In this document: positions 4,404-10,932 of the stretch, piece after piece
Numbering within the stretch: position 1 is the first letter of the stretch
Layout of the letters: the number at the start of each line of letters is the position of its first letter
Source: Streptomyces sp. McG3
GTDB lineage: Bacteria; Actinomycetota; Actinomycetes; Streptomycetales; Streptomycetaceae
NCBI RefSeq assembly: GCF_018619185.1
Contig: NZ_JAAXYC010000007.1
Location: 1-64,000 of the forward strand
Reading direction: 5' to 3'
Length of the DNA stretch: 64,000 bases
Position numbers and translations under genes: made by a program
Notes under the pieces: generated by a model
The model's database searches: none
What the model saw: the letters and a program-made list of their open reading frames with translations, nothing else
What the model was told of the DNA's origin: nothing

Positions 4404-4502
4404 TCACGCACATCGCCCGACCCCGCCCTGGCCGCTGCCGAGGGCGCCGCTGCCCACCCGGCCGCCCTCCTTCGCGAAGGAGGAGAAGAAGTCGGTGGCC
4501 AT
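4404..4502 (-). CDS. Possible 32-residue ORF overlapping the end of cysN
   Basis: A small frame starts in the TGATG overlap with the cysN stop and encodes 32 residues beginning MATDFFSSFAKEGG. Nearly every codon ends in G or C, as in real genes of this window, and the overlap would allow translational coupling. It is not recognised and ends in a glycine-rich tail. A perfect 18-base palindrome with arms CCTCCTTCG and CGAAGGAGG lies inside it at 4466-4483. The alternative is that this is only the untranslated spacer before ssuA, and the palindrome is an RNA hairpin or operator. Confidence 0.3.
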   Translation of the reverse strand: MATDFFSSFAKEGGRVGSGALGSGQGGVGRCA

Positions 4503-5848
4503 CAGAAGTCCCACTCGGCGTCGTCGTCGGCGGCCGGGGTGGCGGCCTCGGCGACCGCGGCGAACGAGGCGCCCGCCATGCCGGCGCTCAGCGTCGTACC
4601 GTCCGCCGGGTCGATCAGGAGGAACGAACCGGTGCGCCGGGAGTCCGCGTAGGCGTCGAGCGCGAGCGGCTCGGCGGTGCGCACGACGACCCGGCCGATG
4701 TCGTTGGCGACCAGCTGCCCGGGGGCCGGGTGCTGGGAGAGGTCGTCCAGGGTGAGCCGGGAGGGGATGTCCTTGACGATCGCCTTGACCGTGCGGGTGG
4801 TGTGCTTGATCAGCACCCGCTGGCCCACCGAGAGCGGCTGGTCGGCGACGTGGCAGACGGTCGCCTCTACGTCCTGCGTGACGGCGGGGGAGTCGTCGGC
4901 CGGGGCGATCAGGTCACCGCGCGAGATGTCGATGTCGTCGGCCAGCCGGAGCGTCACCGACTGCGGGGCCCAGGCGATGTCGACGCTCTCCCCGAGCGCG
5001 TCGATGCCCGTGATCGTGGTGGTGCGCCCCGAGGGGAGTACGGAGACGGCCTCGCCGACCCGGAACACCCCGGCCGCGATCTGACCGGCGTAGCCCCGGT
5101 AGTCGCGGTGCTCGGCGCTCTGCGGGCGGATCACGTACTGCACGGGGAAGCGCGCGTGGCAGGCGGTGAGGTCGTGGCTGACCGGCACCGTCTCCAGGTG
5201 CTCCAGGACGGTCGGCCCGCCGTACCAGTCCATGTGCGCGGACGGCTCCACCACGTTGTCCCCGGCCAGTGCCGAGATCGGGATCGCGGTGATCTCCGGG
5301 ACGCCGAGCGACGCGGCGTACGCGGTGAACTCCTCGGCTATCGCGGCGAACACGGGCTCCGCGTAGTCGACCAGGTCCATCTTGTTGACGGCCAGCACCA
5401 CGTGCGGGACGCGCAGCAGCGCGGCGACGGCGGCGTGCCGGCGGGTCTGCTCGACGACCCCGTTGCGGGCGTCGACCAGGACCACGGCCAGCTCCGCCGT
5501 GGAGGCCCCGGTCACCATGTTGCGGGTGTACTGCACATGGCCCGGGGTGTCGGCGAGGATGAACCGGCGGCGGGCGGTGGCGAAGTAGCGGTAGGCAACG
5601 TCGATGGTGATGCCCTGCTCGCGCTCGGCCCGCAGCCCGTCGGTCAGCAGCGCCAGGTCCGGAGCGTTCTGGCCGCGGCTCAGCGACGCCTGCTCGACGG
5701 CCTCCAGCTGGTCCGTGAGGATCGACTTGGAGTCGTGCAGCAGGCGTCCCACGAGGGTGGACTTGCCGTCGTCGACCGACCCGGCGGTGGCGAACCGCAG
5801 CAGGGTGGTGGCCGACACGTCGGCGAGCTGCTCGGTGGTCGTGGTCAT
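4502..5848 (-). CDS. cysN: Sulfate adenylyltransferase subunit 1 (GTPase subunit)
   Basis: This is the 448-residue regulatory GTPase of ATP sulfurylase, which couples GTP hydrolysis to formation of adenosine 5'-phosphosulfate. Motifs are the P-loop AGSVDDGKSTL near residue 22, the switch ADTPGHVQYTRNM, and the guanine-specificity motif AVNKMDLVDY, followed by EF-Tu-like beta-barrel domains. The start at 5848 (MTTTTEQL) is one base after the cysD stop, giving a tight operon. There is no fused CysC kinase domain, in keeping with the separate cysC gene upstream. Confidence 0.96.
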   Translation of the reverse strand: MTTTTEQLADVSATTLLRFATAGSVDDGKSTLVGRLLHDSKSILTDQLEAVEQASLSRGQNAPDLALLTDGLRAEREQGITIDVAYRYFATARRRFILADTPGHVQYTRNMVTGASTAELAVVLVDARNGVVEQTRRHAAVAALLRVPHVVLAVNKMDLVDYAEPVFAAIAEEFTAYAASLGVPEITAIPISALAGDNVVEPSAHMDWYGGPTVLEHLETVPVSHDLTACHARFPVQYVIRPQSAEHRDYRGYAGQIAAGVFRVGEAVSVLPSGRTTTITGIDALGESVDIAWAPQSVTLRLADDIDISRGDLIAPADDSPAVTQDVEATVCHVADQPLSVGQRVLIKHTTRTVKAIVKDIPSRLTLDDLSQHPAPGQLVANDIGRVVVRTAEPLALDAYADSRRTGSFLLIDPADGTTLSAGMAGASFAAVAEAATPAADDDAEWDF

Positions 5849-5849
5849 C

Positions 5850-6785
5850 TTAGAAATACCCCTCGCGCTTGCGGTCTTCCATCGCGGCCTCGGACATCTT
5901 GTCGTCGGCACGGGTCGCGCCCCGTTCGGTGAGCCGGGAGGCGGCGATCTCGGTGATCACGCCCTCCAGCGTGGTGGCGTCGGAGTCGACGGCACCGGTG
6001 CAGGACATGTCGCCGACCGTGCGGTAGCGGACCAGTCGGGTCTCGGTGGACTCGTGCTCCTTGGGACCGCCCCAGTGCCCGGCGGTCAGCCACATGCCGT
6101 TGCGGTCGAAGACCTCGCGCTCATGGGCGAAGTAGATCTCCGGGAGCTCGATCCCCTCCCGCTCGATGTACTGCCAGACGTCCAGCTCGGTCCAGTTGGA
6201 GATCGGGAAGACCCGCACGTGTTCGCCCGGGGCGTGCCGGCCGTTGTACAGCTGCCACAGTTCGGGCCGCTGGCGGCGCGGGTCCCACTGCGAGAACTCG
6301 TCGCGCAGCGAGAAGACCCGCTCCTTGGCGCGCGCCTTCTCCTCGTCGCGCCGCCCGCCGCCGAACACCGCGTCGAAGCGGTGCTGCTGGATCGCCTCGG
6401 TCAGCGGGACCGTCTGGAGCGGGTTGCGGGTGCCGTCGGGGCGCTCGCGGAGCTTCCCGGCGTCGATGTACTCCTGCACGGAGGCGACGTGCAGCCGCAG
6501 CCCGTGTTTCTTCACCGTGCGGTCGCGGTACTCCAGGACCTCGGGGAAGTTGTGTCCGGTGTCCACGTGCAGCAGGGTGAACGGCACCGGCGCGGGCGCG
6601 AACGCCTTGAGCGCCAGGTGCAGCATCACGATGGAGTCCTTGCCGCCGGAGAACAGGATCACCGGCCGCTCGAACTCGCCCGCCACCTCACGGAAGATGT
6701 GGACCGCCTCCGACTCCAGGGAGTCCAGGTGGCTGAGCGCGTACGGGTTGACGGTGCCTTCCGGCACGGTGGCGACGGTGCTCAC
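5850..6785 (-). CDS. cysD: Sulfate adenylyltransferase subunit 2
   Basis: This is the 311-residue catalytic subunit of ATP sulfurylase, which adenylates sulfate with ATP. The PP-loop SGGKDSIVMLHLALKAF is near the N-terminus, and the family-typical VDTGHNFPE and NWTELDVWQYIEREGIELPEIYFAHER follow. The protein ends in the usual TERGATRADDKMSEAAMEDRKREGYF region. A GTG at 6785 overlaps the cysC stop by four bases (GTGA), indicating translational coupling. It works as a heterodimer with CysN. Confidence 0.96.
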   Translation of the reverse strand: MSTVATVPEGTVNPYALSHLDSLESEAVHIFREVAGEFERPVILFSGGKDSIVMLHLALKAFAPAPVPFTLLHVDTGHNFPEVLEYRDRTVKKHGLRLHVASVQEYIDAGKLRERPDGTRNPLQTVPLTEAIQQHRFDAVFGGGRRDEEKARAKERVFSLRDEFSQWDPRRQRPELWQLYNGRHAPGEHVRVFPISNWTELDVWQYIEREGIELPEIYFAHEREVFDRNGMWLTAGHWGGPKEHESTETRLVRYRTVGDMSCTGAVDSDATTLEGVITEIAASRLTERGATRADDKMSEAAMEDRKREGYF

Positions 6786-7327
6786 GCCAGGCCCCTCTCG
6801 GTGAGCAGCGCGTGGAGCGCCGCTGCGGACTCCTGCACGGTCTGCTGGTGCGACTCGATCCGCAGGTCGGGCGATTCGGGCGCCTCGTAGGGGTCGTCGA
6901 CCCCGGTGAGACCGCTGATCTCGCCGGCCGCCTGCTTGGCGTACAGCCCCTTCACATCGCGTACGGAGCACACCTCGACGGGGGTCGCGACGTGCACCTC
7001 CAGATAGGTGGTGGACTCGGTGGCGTGCCGCTTGCGGACGGCCTCGCGGCTGTCGGCGAACGGGGCGATGACGGGGACCAGCACCTTCACGCCGTTGGCG
7101 GCGAGCAGTTCGGCGACGAAGCCGATCCGGGCCACGTTGGTGTGCCGGTCCTCGCGGGAGAAGCCGAGGCCCGCGGAGAGGAACTCGCGGATCTCGTCGC
7201 CGTCGAGCACCTCCACCCGGTGTCCCCCGGTCCGCAGCCGGCCCGCCAGCTCGTACGCGATGGTGGTCTTGCCCGCGCTCGGCAGACCGGTCAGCCAGAT
7301 CGTGGCTCCCGTCTCCGTCACGCTCAT
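6782..7327 (-). CDS. cysC: Adenylylsulfate (APS) kinase
   Basis: A 181-residue kinase that phosphorylates APS to PAPS. It has the P-loop GLPSAGKTTIA at about residues 14-24, LDGDEIREFLSAGLGFSREDR, and the C-terminal KGLYAKQAAGEISGLTG lid region. The ATG at 7327 has an AGGAG six bases upstream. A second in-frame ATG at 7351 overlaps the cysH stop (ATGA) and would add eight residues. The locus also encodes an Fe-S type reductase (cysH) that usually acts on APS directly, so PAPS made here may serve sulfation as well as reduction; that is inference. Confidence 0.94.
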   Translation of the reverse strand: MSVTETGATIWLTGLPSAGKTTIAYELAGRLRTGGHRVEVLDGDEIREFLSAGLGFSREDRHTNVARIGFVAELLAANGVKVLVPVIAPFADSREAVRKRHATESTTYLEVHVATPVEVCSVRDVKGLYAKQAAGEISGLTGVDDPYEAPESPDLRIESHQQTVQESAAALHALLTERGLA

Positions 7328-7350
7328 CGAAGTCTCCTGATCAGTCGTCA

Positions 7351-8067
7351 TCAGCCGTGCAGCCCGCATTCGGTCTTGCCCCGTCCGGCCCAGCGGCCGG
7401 CCCGTGCGTCCTCGCCCTCCAGCACCCGGCGGGTGCAGGGCGCGCAGCCGACGGAGGCGTAGCCGTCCATCAGCAGCGGGTTGGTGAGCACCCCGTGCTC
7501 GGCGACGTAGGCGTCCACGTCGTCCTGGGTCCAGCGGGCGATGGGGGAGACCTTCACCTTGCGGCGCTTGGCGTCCCAGCCGACGACCGGGGTGTTCGCC
7601 CGGGTCGGGGACTCGTCGCGGCGCAGGCCCGTCGCCCACGCGGCGTAGGCGGTCAGGCCGTCCTCCAACGGCTTCACCTTGCGCAGCGCGCAGCACAGGT
7701 CGGGGTCGCGGTCGTGCAGCTTCTCGCCGTGCTCGGCGTCCTGTTCGGCCACGGTCCGCCGGGGGGTGATCGTGATGACGTTGACGTCCATCACCGCGTC
7801 CACCGCGTCCCGGGTCCCGATGGTCTCCGGGAAGTGGTAGCCGGTGTCCAGGAAGACCACGTCCACGCCCGGCATCACCCGCGCCGCGAGATGCGCGACC
7901 ACGGCGTCCTCCATCGAGGAGGTGACGCAGAAGCGCGGCCCGAAGGTGTCGGTCGCCCACTTCAGGATCTCGGTGGCGGAGGCGTCCTCCAGCTCCCGTC
8001 CGGCCCGCTCGGCCAGCTCCTGAAGCTCGCTGTCCGTCAGCTCGCCGCTCAGCAGAGTGTCCGTCAT
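7351..8067 (-). CDS. cysH: Assimilatory adenylylsulfate (APS) reductase, Fe-S type
   Basis: A 238-residue PP-ATPase-fold reductase. Conserved elements are SMEDAVVAHLAA, FLDTGYHFPETIGTRDAV, the paired cysteines in DLCCALRKVKPL, the second pair in VGCAPCTRRV, and the C-terminal catalytic KTECGLHG. The CC and CxxC pairs are the [4Fe-4S] ligands of plant/bacterial APS reductases, so APS rather than PAPS is the expected substrate. The product is sulfite, which passes to the sulfite reductase encoded upstream. Its start overlaps the stop of the small CxxC protein gene, so the two are translated as a coupled pair. Confidence 0.95.
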   Translation of the reverse strand: MTDTLLSGELTDSELQELAERAGRELEDASATEILKWATDTFGPRFCVTSSMEDAVVAHLAARVMPGVDVVFLDTGYHFPETIGTRDAVDAVMDVNVITITPRRTVAEQDAEHGEKLHDRDPDLCCALRKVKPLEDGLTAYAAWATGLRRDESPTRANTPVVGWDAKRRKVKVSPIARWTQDDVDAYVAEHGVLTNPLLMDGYASVGCAPCTRRVLEGEDARAGRWAGRGKTECGLHG

Positions 8068-8243
8068 ATTCCGTCCCCTTCACCGTCGTTGCGCTGAACG
8101 CCCCGGGTCAGCAGACCCAGGAACTTCAGCTGGAACGCACGGTTGCAGGAAGCACATTCCCAGGCGCCGTGACCGGTCTCGTTGGGACGCAGGTCCTCGT
8201 CGCCGCAGTACGGGCAGTAGAACGGCGCGGCTCGCTCGCTCAT
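8064..8243 (-). CDS. 59-residue double-CxxC protein between sir and cysH
   Basis: This short gene encodes 59 residues. Two cysteine pairs, CPYC near residue 10 and CASC near residue 33, form a zinc-ribbon or rubredoxin-like arrangement: FYCPYCGDEDLRP, then WECASCNRAFQLKFLGL. The start overlaps the sir stop and the stop overlaps the cysH start by four bases on each side, and third positions are almost all G or C. It is therefore very likely expressed in step with both reductases. It might bind zinc or iron, pass electrons or sulfur, or help assemble the reductases. None of these is shown by sequence. As I recall, a similar small gene sits in the same place in other Streptomyces. Confidence 0.85.
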   Translation of the reverse strand: MSERAAPFYCPYCGDEDLRPNETGHGAWECASCNRAFQLKFLGLLTRGVQRNDGEGDGI

Positions 8244-9937
8244 GACAGCGACTCCGCACTGGCCCGGGCCGCCCAGGTCGCGAAGCGCTCGCCGTCCTCG
8301 CGCTCCTCCTGGAAGCGGCCGAGCACCCGCTCGACGTAGTCGGGCAGTTCGGCCGAAGTGACCTTCAGGCCACGGACCTTGCGACCGAACCCGGCCTCCA
8401 GGCCGAGCGCCCCGCCGAGGTGCACCTGGTAGCCCTCGACCTGGTTGCCGCTCTCGTCCAGCATCAACTGACCCTTGAGGCCGATGTCCGCGACCTGGAT
8501 ACGGGCGCAGGCGTTCGGGCAGCCGTTGATGTTGATGGTGATCGGGTGGTCGAACTCCGGGATGCGGCGCTCCAGTTCGTCGATGAGGGCGGCCCCGCGG
8601 GCCTTCGTCTCGACGATCGCCAGCTTGCAGAACTCGATGCCGGTGCAGGCCATCGTGCCGCGCCGGAACGGGGACGGGGTGACCTTGAGGTCGAGCGCCT
8701 CCAGGCCGGAGACCAGGGATTCCACCTGCTCCTCGGCCACGTCGAGCACGATCATCTTCTGCTCGGCGGTGGTCCGCACCCGGCCGGAGCCGTGGGCGTC
8801 GGCCAGCTCGGCGATCTTGGTGAGCGTGGAGCCGTCGACCCGGCCGACCCGCGCGGCGAAGCCGACGTAGAAACGGCCGTCCTTCTGCCGGTGCACTCCG
8901 AGGTGGTCGCGCCAGGTCTGGGTGGGCTGCTCGGGCGCGGGGCCGTCGATCAGCTCGCGCTTCAGGTACTCGTCCTGAAGGATCCGGCGGAACTTCTCCG
9001 GGCCCCAGTCCGCGACCAGGAACTTCAGGCGGGCGCGGGTGCGCAGCCGCCGGTAGCCGTAGTCGCGGAAGATCGAGATGACCCCGCCGTACACGTCGGG
9101 CACCTCGTCCAGCGGCACCCAGGCGCCGAGCCGCACCCCGAGCTTGGGGTTGGTGGAGAGGCCGCCGCCGACCCAGAGGTCGAAGCCGGGGCCGTGCTCC
9201 GGGTGGTTCACGCCGACGAAGGCGATGTCGTTGATCTCGTGCGCCACGTCCAGCTGCGGGGAGCCCGAGACCGCCGACTTGAACTTGCGGGGCAGGTTGG
9301 AGAAGTCGGGGTTGCCGATGAACCGGCGCTGGATCTCGTCGATCGCCGGCGTGCCGTCGATGATCTCGTTCTCGGCGATGCCCGCGACCGGGGAGCCGAG
9401 GATCACGCGGGGGGTGTCACCGCAGGCCTCGGTGGTGGACAGGCCCACCTCTTCGAGCCGCCGCCAGATCTCCGGTACGTCCTCGATGCGGATCCAGTGG
9501 TACTGCACGTTCTGCCGGTCGGTGAGGTCGGCGGTGCCGCGCGCGAACTCCTGGGAGATCTCCCCGATCACCCGCAGCTGCTGCGTGGTCAGCCGGCCGC
9601 CGTCGATGCGGACCCGCAGCATGAAGTACTCGTCGTCCAGCTCCTCCGGCTCCAGCACGGCCGTCTTGCCGCCGTCGATGCCGGGCTTGCGCTGGGTGTA
9701 CAGCCCCCACCAGCGCATGCGTCCGCGCAGGTCGTTCGGGTCGATGGAGTCGAAGCCGCGCTTGGAGTAGATCGTCTCAATACGTGTCCGTACGTTGAGA
9801 CCGTCGTCGTCCTTCTTGAACTGCTCGTTCCCGTTCAGGGGGGTGTGGTGGCCCACGGCCCACTGACCCTCGCCACGGTGGCGTCCGGCCTTGCGGCGGG
9901 GCGTGGTGGTCGCAGGCTGTTCCGGGGTAGCGGCCAT
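8240..9937 (-). CDS. sir: Sulfite reductase (ferredoxin), siroheme / [4Fe-4S] type
   Basis: A 565-residue assimilatory sulfite reductase that performs the six-electron reduction of sulfite to sulfide. The siroheme/[4Fe-4S] ligands are visible as CTGIEFC and, about 40 residues on, CPNAC in NINGCPNACARIQVADIG. Two ferrite-type half domains flank them, for example YHWIRIEDVPEIW and RLRTRARLKFLV. No flavoprotein partner is encoded nearby, so ferredoxin is the likely donor. The ATG at 9937 is preceded by GAAGGAC and fits the usual length. It heads the operon and lies 114 bases after a cysteine-containing leader ORF that may control it. Confidence 0.95.
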   Translation of the reverse strand: MAATPEQPATTTPRRKAGRHRGEGQWAVGHHTPLNGNEQFKKDDDGLNVRTRIETIYSKRGFDSIDPNDLRGRMRWWGLYTQRKPGIDGGKTAVLEPEELDDEYFMLRVRIDGGRLTTQQLRVIGEISQEFARGTADLTDRQNVQYHWIRIEDVPEIWRRLEEVGLSTTEACGDTPRVILGSPVAGIAENEIIDGTPAIDEIQRRFIGNPDFSNLPRKFKSAVSGSPQLDVAHEINDIAFVGVNHPEHGPGFDLWVGGGLSTNPKLGVRLGAWVPLDEVPDVYGGVISIFRDYGYRRLRTRARLKFLVADWGPEKFRRILQDEYLKRELIDGPAPEQPTQTWRDHLGVHRQKDGRFYVGFAARVGRVDGSTLTKIAELADAHGSGRVRTTAEQKMIVLDVAEEQVESLVSGLEALDLKVTPSPFRRGTMACTGIEFCKLAIVETKARGAALIDELERRIPEFDHPITININGCPNACARIQVADIGLKGQLMLDESGNQVEGYQVHLGGALGLEAGFGRKVRGLKVTSAELPDYVERVLGRFQEEREDGERFATWAARASAESLS

Positions 9938-10051
9938 GACAATACGTCCTTCGGGACTGCGGGAGGGCGGCTCTGAGCGGCACACTCGCGCTGAGGCGCG
10001 GCGGTGCGCGGGGCGGTTCAGAGGGAAGAGGGTGCGGCGGTGCTGGGACTC

Positions 10052-10135
10052 TCAGCTCGCCGGACAGATGGCGCTGGACATGCGGCAGAGGTCGACGTGG
10101 CGTCGACTCACCAAGGCAATTCCAGTTCCAGACAT
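10052..10135 (-). CDS. 27-residue leader peptide upstream of the sulfur operon
   Basis: An ATG-initiated 27-codon ORF lies 114 bases before sir. Its core SRRHVDLCRMSSAIC matches the short SRRHVDL-type peptides that I recall being annotated as putative leader peptides before sulfur and transport genes in Streptomyces. Two cysteines (residues 17 and 24) make it suited to sensing charged tRNA-Cys by ribosome stalling. The bases coding RRHVD form a near-perfect hairpin (GTCGAC, five bases, GTCGAC), so RNA structure and peptide are both constrained. Cysteine-rich leaders act this way before the equivalent operon in mycobacteria. A role here is inference. Confidence 0.72.
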   Translation of the reverse strand: MSGTGIALVSRRHVDLCRMSSAICPAS

Positions 10136-10275
10136 GACGGAAGCGTGTCACGCGCATCTCGGGGCAGTCCACCACTATCCGCTATGTGGACGGCTGAGTC
10201 TCGATAGGTGGGACGATGTGGCGCTGATCACGGATCACGGCACTGGCATTGGTGACAAAACGCCCACCTGGCAGC

Positions 10276-10313
10276 GTCGAGGGCGGTGGAGCGACCGCTC
10301 CACCGCCCTCGAC
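10276..10313 (-). terminator. Strong hairpin after the GNAT gene
   Basis: A perfect 17-bp inverted repeat (arms 10276-10292 and 10297-10313, beginning GTCGAGGGCGGTGG) with a four-base loop lies 23 bases after the stop of the acetyltransferase gene. It separates that gene from the sulfur operon promoter. There is no clear T-run, as is common for Streptomyces terminators. Confidence 0.75.
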
Positions 10314-10335
10314 GCCGCCAATTGGCTACGGGTGA

Positions 10336-10932
10336 TCAGGAGGCGTACGCCCCGGGCCACGGACCGGGCGTCGCCACGTCCGGCTCCACCTCGGTCTTCG
10401 TGTCGCAGAGACGGAAGCCGCGCCGGAGATAGTTGTCCATCGCGTGCGGGCCGTCCTTCGAGCAGGTGTGCAGCCACACCCGCTTCGTCGCCGGCCGCTC
10501 CGGCCAGCGCTCCGCCAGGTCCCAGGCGCGCGCCACCCCGTGACTGAGGAGATGACCGCCGATCCGCCGCCCCCGGAACGCCGGGATCAGCCCGAAGTAC
10601 ATGATCTCGACCACGCCGTCGTCGTGCGGATTCAGCTCGACGTACCCGGCCGGCGTCCCGTTCTCGTACGCCACCCAGGTCTCCGCCCCCGGCCGCTCCA
10701 GGGCCTCCTGCCACTGGGCGTACGTCATGCCCAGCCGGTCGGTCCAGTGGATGTCGCCGCCCACGGCGGAGTAGAGGAACCGGCTGAACTCCGGCAGCAC
10801 CACCTCGGACCGGACGATACGCAGATCGCCCTCCGGTACGGCGGCGGACCGGAGATCGTCGGGTGAGGTCTGCTCCAGCGACCAGACGGTCACCTCGGTG
10901 GTCGGGGCTGCGGGCTGCGGGGTATCGCTCAT
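10336..10932 (-). CDS. GNAT-family N-acetyltransferase
   Basis: A 198-residue protein with the GNAT fold. The acetyl-CoA binding loop is FRGRRIGGHLLSHGVARAW at about residues 120-138, preceded by the beta strand EIMYFGLIPAF. C-terminal pieces such as KRVWLHTCSKDGPHAMDNYLRRGF show the usual final strand-helix-strand. The acceptor is unknown; free amino acids, small amines or antibiotics are all possible. It stands alone between the sulfur operon promoter and the GAF regulator gene and is closed by a strong terminator. The start at 10932 gives a typical length. Confidence 0.85.
   Translation of the reverse strand: MSDTPQPAAPTTEVTVWSLEQTSPDDLRSAAVPEGDLRIVRSEVVLPEFSRFLYSAVGGDIHWTDRLGMTYAQWQEALERPGAETWVAYENGTPAGYVELNPHDDGVVEIMYFGLIPAFRGRRIGGHLLSHGVARAWDLAERWPERPATKRVWLHTCSKDGPHAMDNYLRRGFRLCDTKTEVEPDVATPGPWPGAYAS

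Follow-up and report, generated by a model that had tools for sequence, protein, structure and literature searches.

A probably leaderless ORF with a conserved UGU cysteine codon is a candidate regulator of the sir-cysHCDN sulfur operon in Streptomyces sp. McG3

A short ORF precedes the sulfur operon of Streptomyces sp. McG3, which raises the question of whether it regulates the operon in response to cysteine and, if so, which of its features would act as the sensor. The window, namely the 64,000-nucleotide stretch of contig NZ_JAAXYC010000007.1 that was analysed, carries this leader ORF on the minus strand (10052..10135). The ORF has 27 codons with an ATG start and encodes MSGTGIALVSRRHVDLCRMSSAICPAS, with cysteines at codon 17 (TGC, 10085..10087) and codon 24 (UGU, 10064..10066); the latter is referred to below as the anchor codon. 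The stop codon of the leader ends at 10052 and is separated by 114 bases from the sir ATG at 9937, which confirms the first-pass annotation, where a 27-codon ORF with two cysteines had been placed 114 bases before sir. The genes after the leader lie on the same strand in the order sir-cysH-cysC-cysD-cysN. The sir gene (8240..9937) encodes a ferredoxin-type nitrite/sulfite reductase (NF007125, E 9.2e-117, 390.6 bits, below the equivalog cut-off of 594) and is followed by cysH (7351..8067; NF002537, 269.7 bits, cut-off 154), an ORF with a C-terminal cysC for adenylyl-sulfate kinase (6782..8083; TIGR00455, 193.1 bits, cut-off 138.7, residues 247-424, the true cysC start being inside the ORF), an ORF containing cysD (5850..6971; NF003587, 455.8 bits, cut-off 195, match from residue 77), and an ORF containing cysN (4502..5911; TIGR02034, 549.2 bits, cut-off 336.1).

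Streptomyces sir loci were gathered by means of the sir protein, independently of the leader, and counts over 80 sequences include the window. The leader was present at 79 of the 80 named loci, the remaining one (L030) having just 116 bases of upstream DNA, which do not cover the leader, and the ATG was found at the identical codon in all 79. Further sir loci from 20 genomes yielded 10 leaders (5/6 for Streptomyces and 5/14 for other members of the order). No convincing leader was found at the other ten, one of them from Streptomyces, and a looser pattern applied to these ten returned one motif-less ORF, which happens to have TGC, and otherwise nothing. That ORF comes from L277, a Streptomyces sir locus where the roughly 600 bases ahead of sir hold no convincing leader; in this it differs from the other Streptomyces sir loci that have enough upstream DNA.

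The window peptide scored 38.3 bits against the NCBIfam model NF042934, 'putative leader peptide' (cis_reg_atten; cut-off 27), and hence belongs to a leader peptide family that is already known; its scores against NF042933 (19.9 bits) and NF042936 (25.4 bits) were both below the cut-off of 45. Matches of the NF042934 type were detected in 199/199 Streptomyces genomes searched, with 2 to 18 per genome and 10 in the window's own genome at E up to 0.01. A class-wide sample gave matches in 110/148 genomes and 59/81 genera (E up to 0.001). In a phylum sample (E up to 0.0001), matches were confined to 5 genomes from within the genus or class (5/7 nearer genomes), with 0/73 among the genomes marked only as the same phylum. 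Fourteen control genomes gave no matches at the E thresholds used for the Streptomyces, class and phylum searches, and when the threshold was relaxed to E 10, 10/14 gave weak matches, none above the cut-off. A weaker match was located on the same contig as the leader (C561:77118-77171), 13 kb beyond the window end, with 21.1 bits, below the cut-off, and an anchor TGT. The family search, together with the scan of downstream genes described below, bears out the earlier claim that the SRRHVDL motif precedes many genes in Streptomyces. NF042934 already models the family and related mycobacterial leaders have been published; neither this family of peptides nor the concept of attenuation by cysteine is new. 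In the open-licence literature searched, the SRRHVDL string appeared only in one unrelated paper.

For codon-level analysis, 167 family leaders were taken, comprising 9 of the 10 own matches, the 30 best from the Streptomyces search, 28 from the class-wide search, and 100 picked by hand from the further class-wide matches listed, the rest of which were set aside; the own match left out, L010, stops at model position 18. After removal of duplicates, 165 unique leaders from 101 genomes remained, and 63 of these genomes are not Streptomyces. Counted from the anchor cysteine, R-13, D-9 and R-6 were found in 165/165 leaders, the peptide-level conservation at fixed spacing that characterises arrest peptides, and L-8 also ranks among the conserved residues. 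R-13 is written with five synonymous codons (CGC 58, CGG 51, CGT 22, CGA 20, and AGG 14) and R-6 with six. As judged from invariant residues whose synonymous codons vary, selection on the family leaders evidently acts at the peptide level. Because the profile served to select the leaders, and all matches used run to the cysteine at the last model position, the invariance of the residues is partly due to this selection, which leaves the choice of codon unaffected.

The anchor codon was TGT in 80/80 Streptomyces sir leaders, window included, in 10/10 leaders from the further sir loci, and in 164/165 unique family leaders (166/167 before removing duplicates), the one exception being TGC in Streptomyces (L244). 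Other cysteine codons of the same family leaders were TGC in 160/191 and TGT in 31/191, a difference in TGT share with a Fisher p of 6.5e-68 that ignores relatedness; since the sequences are related, this and the other p-values given here are too small. In the sir genes (n=78, L094 excluded), TGC made up 99% and TGT 1% of cysteine codons. Codon 17 was GGC (Gly) in 68/80, TGC in 11/80, and GTC in 1/80 of the Streptomyces sir leaders. Only the last cysteine is therefore conserved, the first being replaced in 69/80, and joint action of the two cysteines was not supported. Among the 161 leaders in which a sense codon follows the anchor, the next base was C in 131, T in 23, A in 6, and G in 1, that is, a pyrimidine in 154/161, and purines were rarer (7/161) than at the next three codons (154/355, p 2.4e-22). 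Three to four codons separate the anchor from the stop in 113/165 leaders. A counter-example was found on the S. clavuligerus plasmid pF1D26A, where a leader (L297, 19938-20063) has serine at the anchor. This leader of the same motif is annotated under the name of NF042934, 'putative leader peptide', and adjoins ssuE and flavin-dependent monooxygenase genes.

That nearly every relative examined has this uncommon cysteine codon at an identical position suggests a single slow codon as the sensor. By the general principles of wobble and stacking, UGU should be decoded more weakly than UGC, and a 3' pyrimidine should weaken its decoding further. In the window's own genome, two tRNA-Cys genes were detected, both with the anticodon GCA (ARAGORN made six calls, in overlapping loci; of the 64 Rfam tRNA matches, each of which was inspected, L348 alone received no ARAGORN gene call). 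A UGU-specific cysteine isoacceptor was rejected on this basis, and codon-specific isoacceptors do not explain the UGU bias. One of the genes lies in a Gly-Cys-Val cluster and the other is a second, divergent tRNA-Cys(GCA) gene (C512:24529-24603; L344, L359). DNA similar to the divergent gene (77-100% identity) was present in 36/41 Streptomyces genomes searched, own included.

The region upstream of the leader showed conserved promoter-like elements, with positions counted from the leader ATG. The predicted -35 box TGGACT (10166..10171, minus strand) starts at -36 in all but one of the 80 sir upstream regions, the exception being at -37, and the predicted -10 box CACGCT (10142..10147, minus strand) has A-11 in 79/80 and T-7 in 80/80. 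An NdgR-like activator site, GTCCACATAGCGGAT, occupies -56 to -42 (10177..10191, minus strand), and the pattern GTCC..GGA[CT], then TGGACT, was found in 77/80 sir upstream regions. This site fits 13/15 positions of the NdgR motif printed in the available part of PMC4340878, which also places SCO6097 to SCO6102 (SCO6102 being cysI) among the NdgR targets in S. coelicolor. Upstream of it, an imperfect dyad GTCCC..GAGAC (10198..10214, minus strand) is a possible further operator, and its loose form GTCYC..GRGAC was found in 67/80. Across the family, TAnnnT starting at -14..-12 of the leader start codon occurred in 82/165 leaders, whereas six other windows of 3 bases gave 1, 1, 4, 4, 10, and 25; the two highest of these counts are probably due to a second start codon that follows 15 bases later. 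TAnnnT is absent from -14..-12 of the window leader, and a generic promoter scan gave no sigma-70 consensus site. The fixed distances of the NdgR-like site, -35 box, and -10 box before the leader ATG suggest that the mRNA is probably leaderless, with its 5' end at the ATG; this geometry would suit a leaderless transcript of the mycobacterial type, and the M. smegmatis leaders are described as leaderless in PMC9031893. Further upstream, a long inverted repeat (10264-10325), followed some bases later by TTTT on the minus strand, lies between the leader promoter and an ORF (10336-10932, minus strand) that is acetyltransferase-like by reading, with no NCBIfam match at 1e-20. The repeat may insulate the leader; the terminator scan of the window did not call it, and 17 of 18 Rfam matches, all below gathering scores, overlap it.

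The genes that follow the leaders were examined for shared function. A downstream frame was recovered for 119/165 leaders, and 77 proteins, hand-thinned of near-duplicates, were scanned. The Pfam domains detected were nitrite/sulfite reductase (17), rhodanese (17), luciferase-like monooxygenase (6), DUF4395 (6), sulfatase (5), SDF symporter (4), PAPS reductase (4), FMN reductase (3), cysteine-synthase fold (2), NMT1-type binding protein (2), and cysteine dioxygenase (1), and NCBIfam added SsuA (4). Less plainly related to sulfur were SBP_bac_5 (2), POR (2), and one response-regulator domain. Most of the downstream domains thus have sulfur or cysteine functions by name, unmatched members not being counted.

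The spacer between the leader and sir (9938..10051, minus strand) is C-rich and G-poor (C 0.45, G 0.25) and is a possible Rho loading region. Over 165 leaders, the first 80 bases after the leader stop showed C 0.449 and G 0.278, with C exceeding G in 159/165, as would be expected for a Rho-dependent attenuator, against C 0.390, G 0.312, and 15/23 in 23 control windows before annotated genes, all from one plasmid. The spacers of 71 Streptomyces leaders were more C-rich than these control windows (p 1.3e-4). A classical intrinsic-terminator attenuator would have tandem regulatory codons and a hairpin with a U run in the spacer, whereas the window leader has a single anchor codon and no terminator hairpin with a U run was found in the window, and this candidate was rejected; TTTT occurred anywhere in 23/80 sir spacers. 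When the ribosome was masked at UGU or at the stop in the 80 sir sequences, the modelled access to the sir Shine-Dalgarno averaged 0.43 and 0.43, with changes of over 0.1 in few sequences (higher in 4, lower in 3), and a Shine-Dalgarno switch by ribosome position was rejected for want of an overall effect. Because the spacer is C-rich and G-poor, and neither an intrinsic terminator nor a Shine-Dalgarno switch emerged, Rho may be the likeliest output of the leader, a tentative assignment in that Rho alone falls somewhat short of being probable.

These results suggest, with fair probability, that the ORF belongs to the leaderless regulatory ORFs of an Actinomycetes sulfur/cysteine regulon, in which the nascent peptide and a weakly decoded UGU together sense Cys-tRNA. 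The earlier proposal of a cysteine-responsive sulfur-operon leader is well supported by the family, the sulfur-gene context, and the promoter geometry. Joint action of the two cysteines and a family-wide role of the hairpin were not supported. Transcription, probably aided by NdgR, would begin at the leader ATG, where 70S ribosomes would initiate immediately. The residues R-13, D-9, L-8, and R-6 of the nascent chain would lie in the exit tunnel as the anchor UGU enters the A site, and tRNA-Cys(GCA) would read UGU by G-U wobble with a pyrimidine 3' to it, which should be the weakest available cysteine codon context. With ample Cys-tRNA, the ribosome would pass and terminate, leaving the C-rich G-poor spacer bare, and operon expression would fail, most likely via Rho. 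With scarce Cys-tRNA, the ribosome would stall at UGU, the downstream RNA would be handled differently, and sir-cysHCDN would be made. Against this mechanism, the stretch of RNA under a ribosome stalled at UGU differs by only about 12 bases from that under a ribosome at the stop. The unchanged modelled Shine-Dalgarno access, the serine and TGC anchors of L297 and L244, and the ten further sir loci with no convincing leader also count against it.

The strongest competitor, although unlikely, is a plain hungry-codon attenuator, in which sensing falls to the cysteine codon whatever the sequence of the peptide, and UGU is merely slow. It would account for the sulfur genes downstream and for the fixed anchor codon, and mycobacterial leaders with cysteine runs have been published (available part of PMC9031893). 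However, it leaves the invariance of residues -13, -9, and -6 amid varying codons unaccounted for, which is partly an effect of profile selection, and a lone cysteine codon would be a weak sensor.

Rather less probable is an RNA-structure switch, in which the ORF hairpin and the spacer stems fold alternatively and hide or free the sir Shine-Dalgarno. The first-pass annotation had noted a GTCGAC/GTCGAC hairpin, and both arms are indeed present (10091-10096 and 10102-10107, with a 5-base loop), forming the core of hairpin P1 (10074..10125, minus strand), in which CTGGA/TCCAG surrounds the inner stem (10091-10107). P1 accounts for 17/20 pairs in the RNAalifold consensus of 80 sir sequences. The inner 6-bp stem can pair in 80/80 Streptomyces sir leaders and is served by rare codons: codon 10 is AGT in 80/80, AGT being 1.1% of serine codons in sir genes, and codon 11 is CGC in 0/80, though CGC makes up 60% of arginine codons there. 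In the spacer, the sir Shine-Dalgarno GAAGGA is held in a small hairpin, GTCC-CGAA-GGAC (9946..9957, minus strand), with 4/4 pairs in 60/77 sir spacers, and the stem P3, GCGCAC/GTGTGC (9980..10009, minus strand; 6 pairs in the window), which precedes AGAGCC, extends to at least 8 pairs in 33/77 against 6.7% of shuffles. Three Streptomyces sir loci with longer spacers (L024, L025, and L094), which look unlike the rest, were excluded from these stem counts. Against the switch, modelled access was unchanged, as described above, and two-sided changes were found in 0/20 consensus pairs of the 80 sir sequences. Moreover, all six inner pairs were found in 5/10 further sir leaders, four of those from Streptomyces, and in just 8/165 family leaders, 7 of these of the Streptomyces sir type. 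The hairpin is thus local, and it was rejected as the mechanism of the family. Compared with GC-matched synonymous sequences, the folding signal of the ORF was weak, with a mean z of -1.25 for 60 related sir ORFs and -0.45 for 158 family leaders, and sir ORFs had a mean z of 0.20 without GC matching. The idea that RNA fold and peptide are selected together therefore applies at best to the Streptomyces sir leaders and not to the family.

Still less likely is a ligand-sensing arrest peptide, in which the nascent chain responds to free cysteine or one of its derivatives, and the role of UGU is limited to setting the state of the A site. The model for it is TnaC of the E. coli tna operon, whose nascent chain carries conserved residues at set distances and which works through Rho without an intrinsic terminator. 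The strict spacings D-9 to C0 and R-13 to C0 and a C-rich spacer, as in a Rho-dependent system, would suit it, but the bias of UGU over UGC is not required by it. TnaC senses free tryptophan at the stop codon, whereas a cysteine codon in the A site is proposed for the window leader. That the leader is untranslated and conserved only as a promoter or RNA motif is very improbable: the strong nucleotide conservation of sir leaders speaks for it, but amino acids are kept across the family while synonymous codons vary, and the ATG is fixed in 79/79. The least probable alternative, in which the anchor UGU is a frameshift site and starved ribosomes read on through the spacer, was rejected, as the fixed tetranucleotide UGUY and a sir +1 frame open for 30 codons in 0.79 versus 0.61 of shuffles are outweighed by little or no open-frame excess in the other three of four tests (family 0.72 versus 0.68 and 0.58 versus 0.67; sir second frame 0.60 versus 0.62), and the sir sequences are related and padded with C.

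The preferred reading, sensing of Cys-tRNA at a single UGU with help from the nascent chain, has several relatives among known systems. A 2020 study by Canestrari is said to concern polycysteine leaderless sORFs of mycobacteria, and NF042933 and NF042936 are the NCBIfam models of Ms5788A and Ms4527A, respectively. The mycobacterial leaders, which are treated in PMC9031893, PMC9094748, and PMC13236596, share sulfur genes and a motif with the window leader, for which a leaderless geometry like theirs is predicted. The window leader differs in having two single cysteine codons instead of a cysteine run and in scoring below both cut-offs. The peptide typed after leader L136 passes NF042933 (49.7 versus 45), and leaders L129-L132 as well as L136 have UGU as their anchor codon. 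The available part of PMC1262725 (2005) lists candidate cys leader peptides in Mycobacterium, P. acnes, and B. longum, which, like the window leader, are short ORFs before cys genes with no visible terminator, and Rho was already suggested there; those leaders are defined by runs of cysteine codons near the stop, and no Streptomyces cys leader is named in that part. In S. lividans, eight leader ORFs precede amino-acid genes, namely those for Ala, Ile, Thr, Trp, Leu, and Met (PMC8079986). They are likewise short and in several cases leaderless, but none of the eight peptides shows the motif of the window leader. NF042934 covers the same motif as the window leader, but as a protein profile it does not reach codon choice, promoter, or mechanism. 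In the open-licence literature searched, nothing was found on the fixed UGU and the pyrimidine preference 3' to it, the lost first cysteine, the Streptomyces promoter geometry, or the limits of the hairpin.

In summary, a synonymous codon that is fixed in 164/165 leaders, while other cysteines are mostly written UGC, indicates, in an unusual way, that decoding itself is under selection. The sulfur regulon of Actinomycetes may use a single-codon sensor, nearly always a wobble-read UGU followed by a pyrimidine and sensitised by the nascent peptide, in place of tandem codons, with the mycobacterial polycysteine leaders as a derived form; we consider this broader view about as apt to be wrong as right. 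The vague notion of a cysteine-rich leader is thereby narrowed to one changeable codon, since a change from UGU to UGC keeps the peptide and isolates decoding speed as the signal. As every Streptomyces genome searched carries at least two matches of this type, a test of one codon would inform much of the sulfur control of the class.
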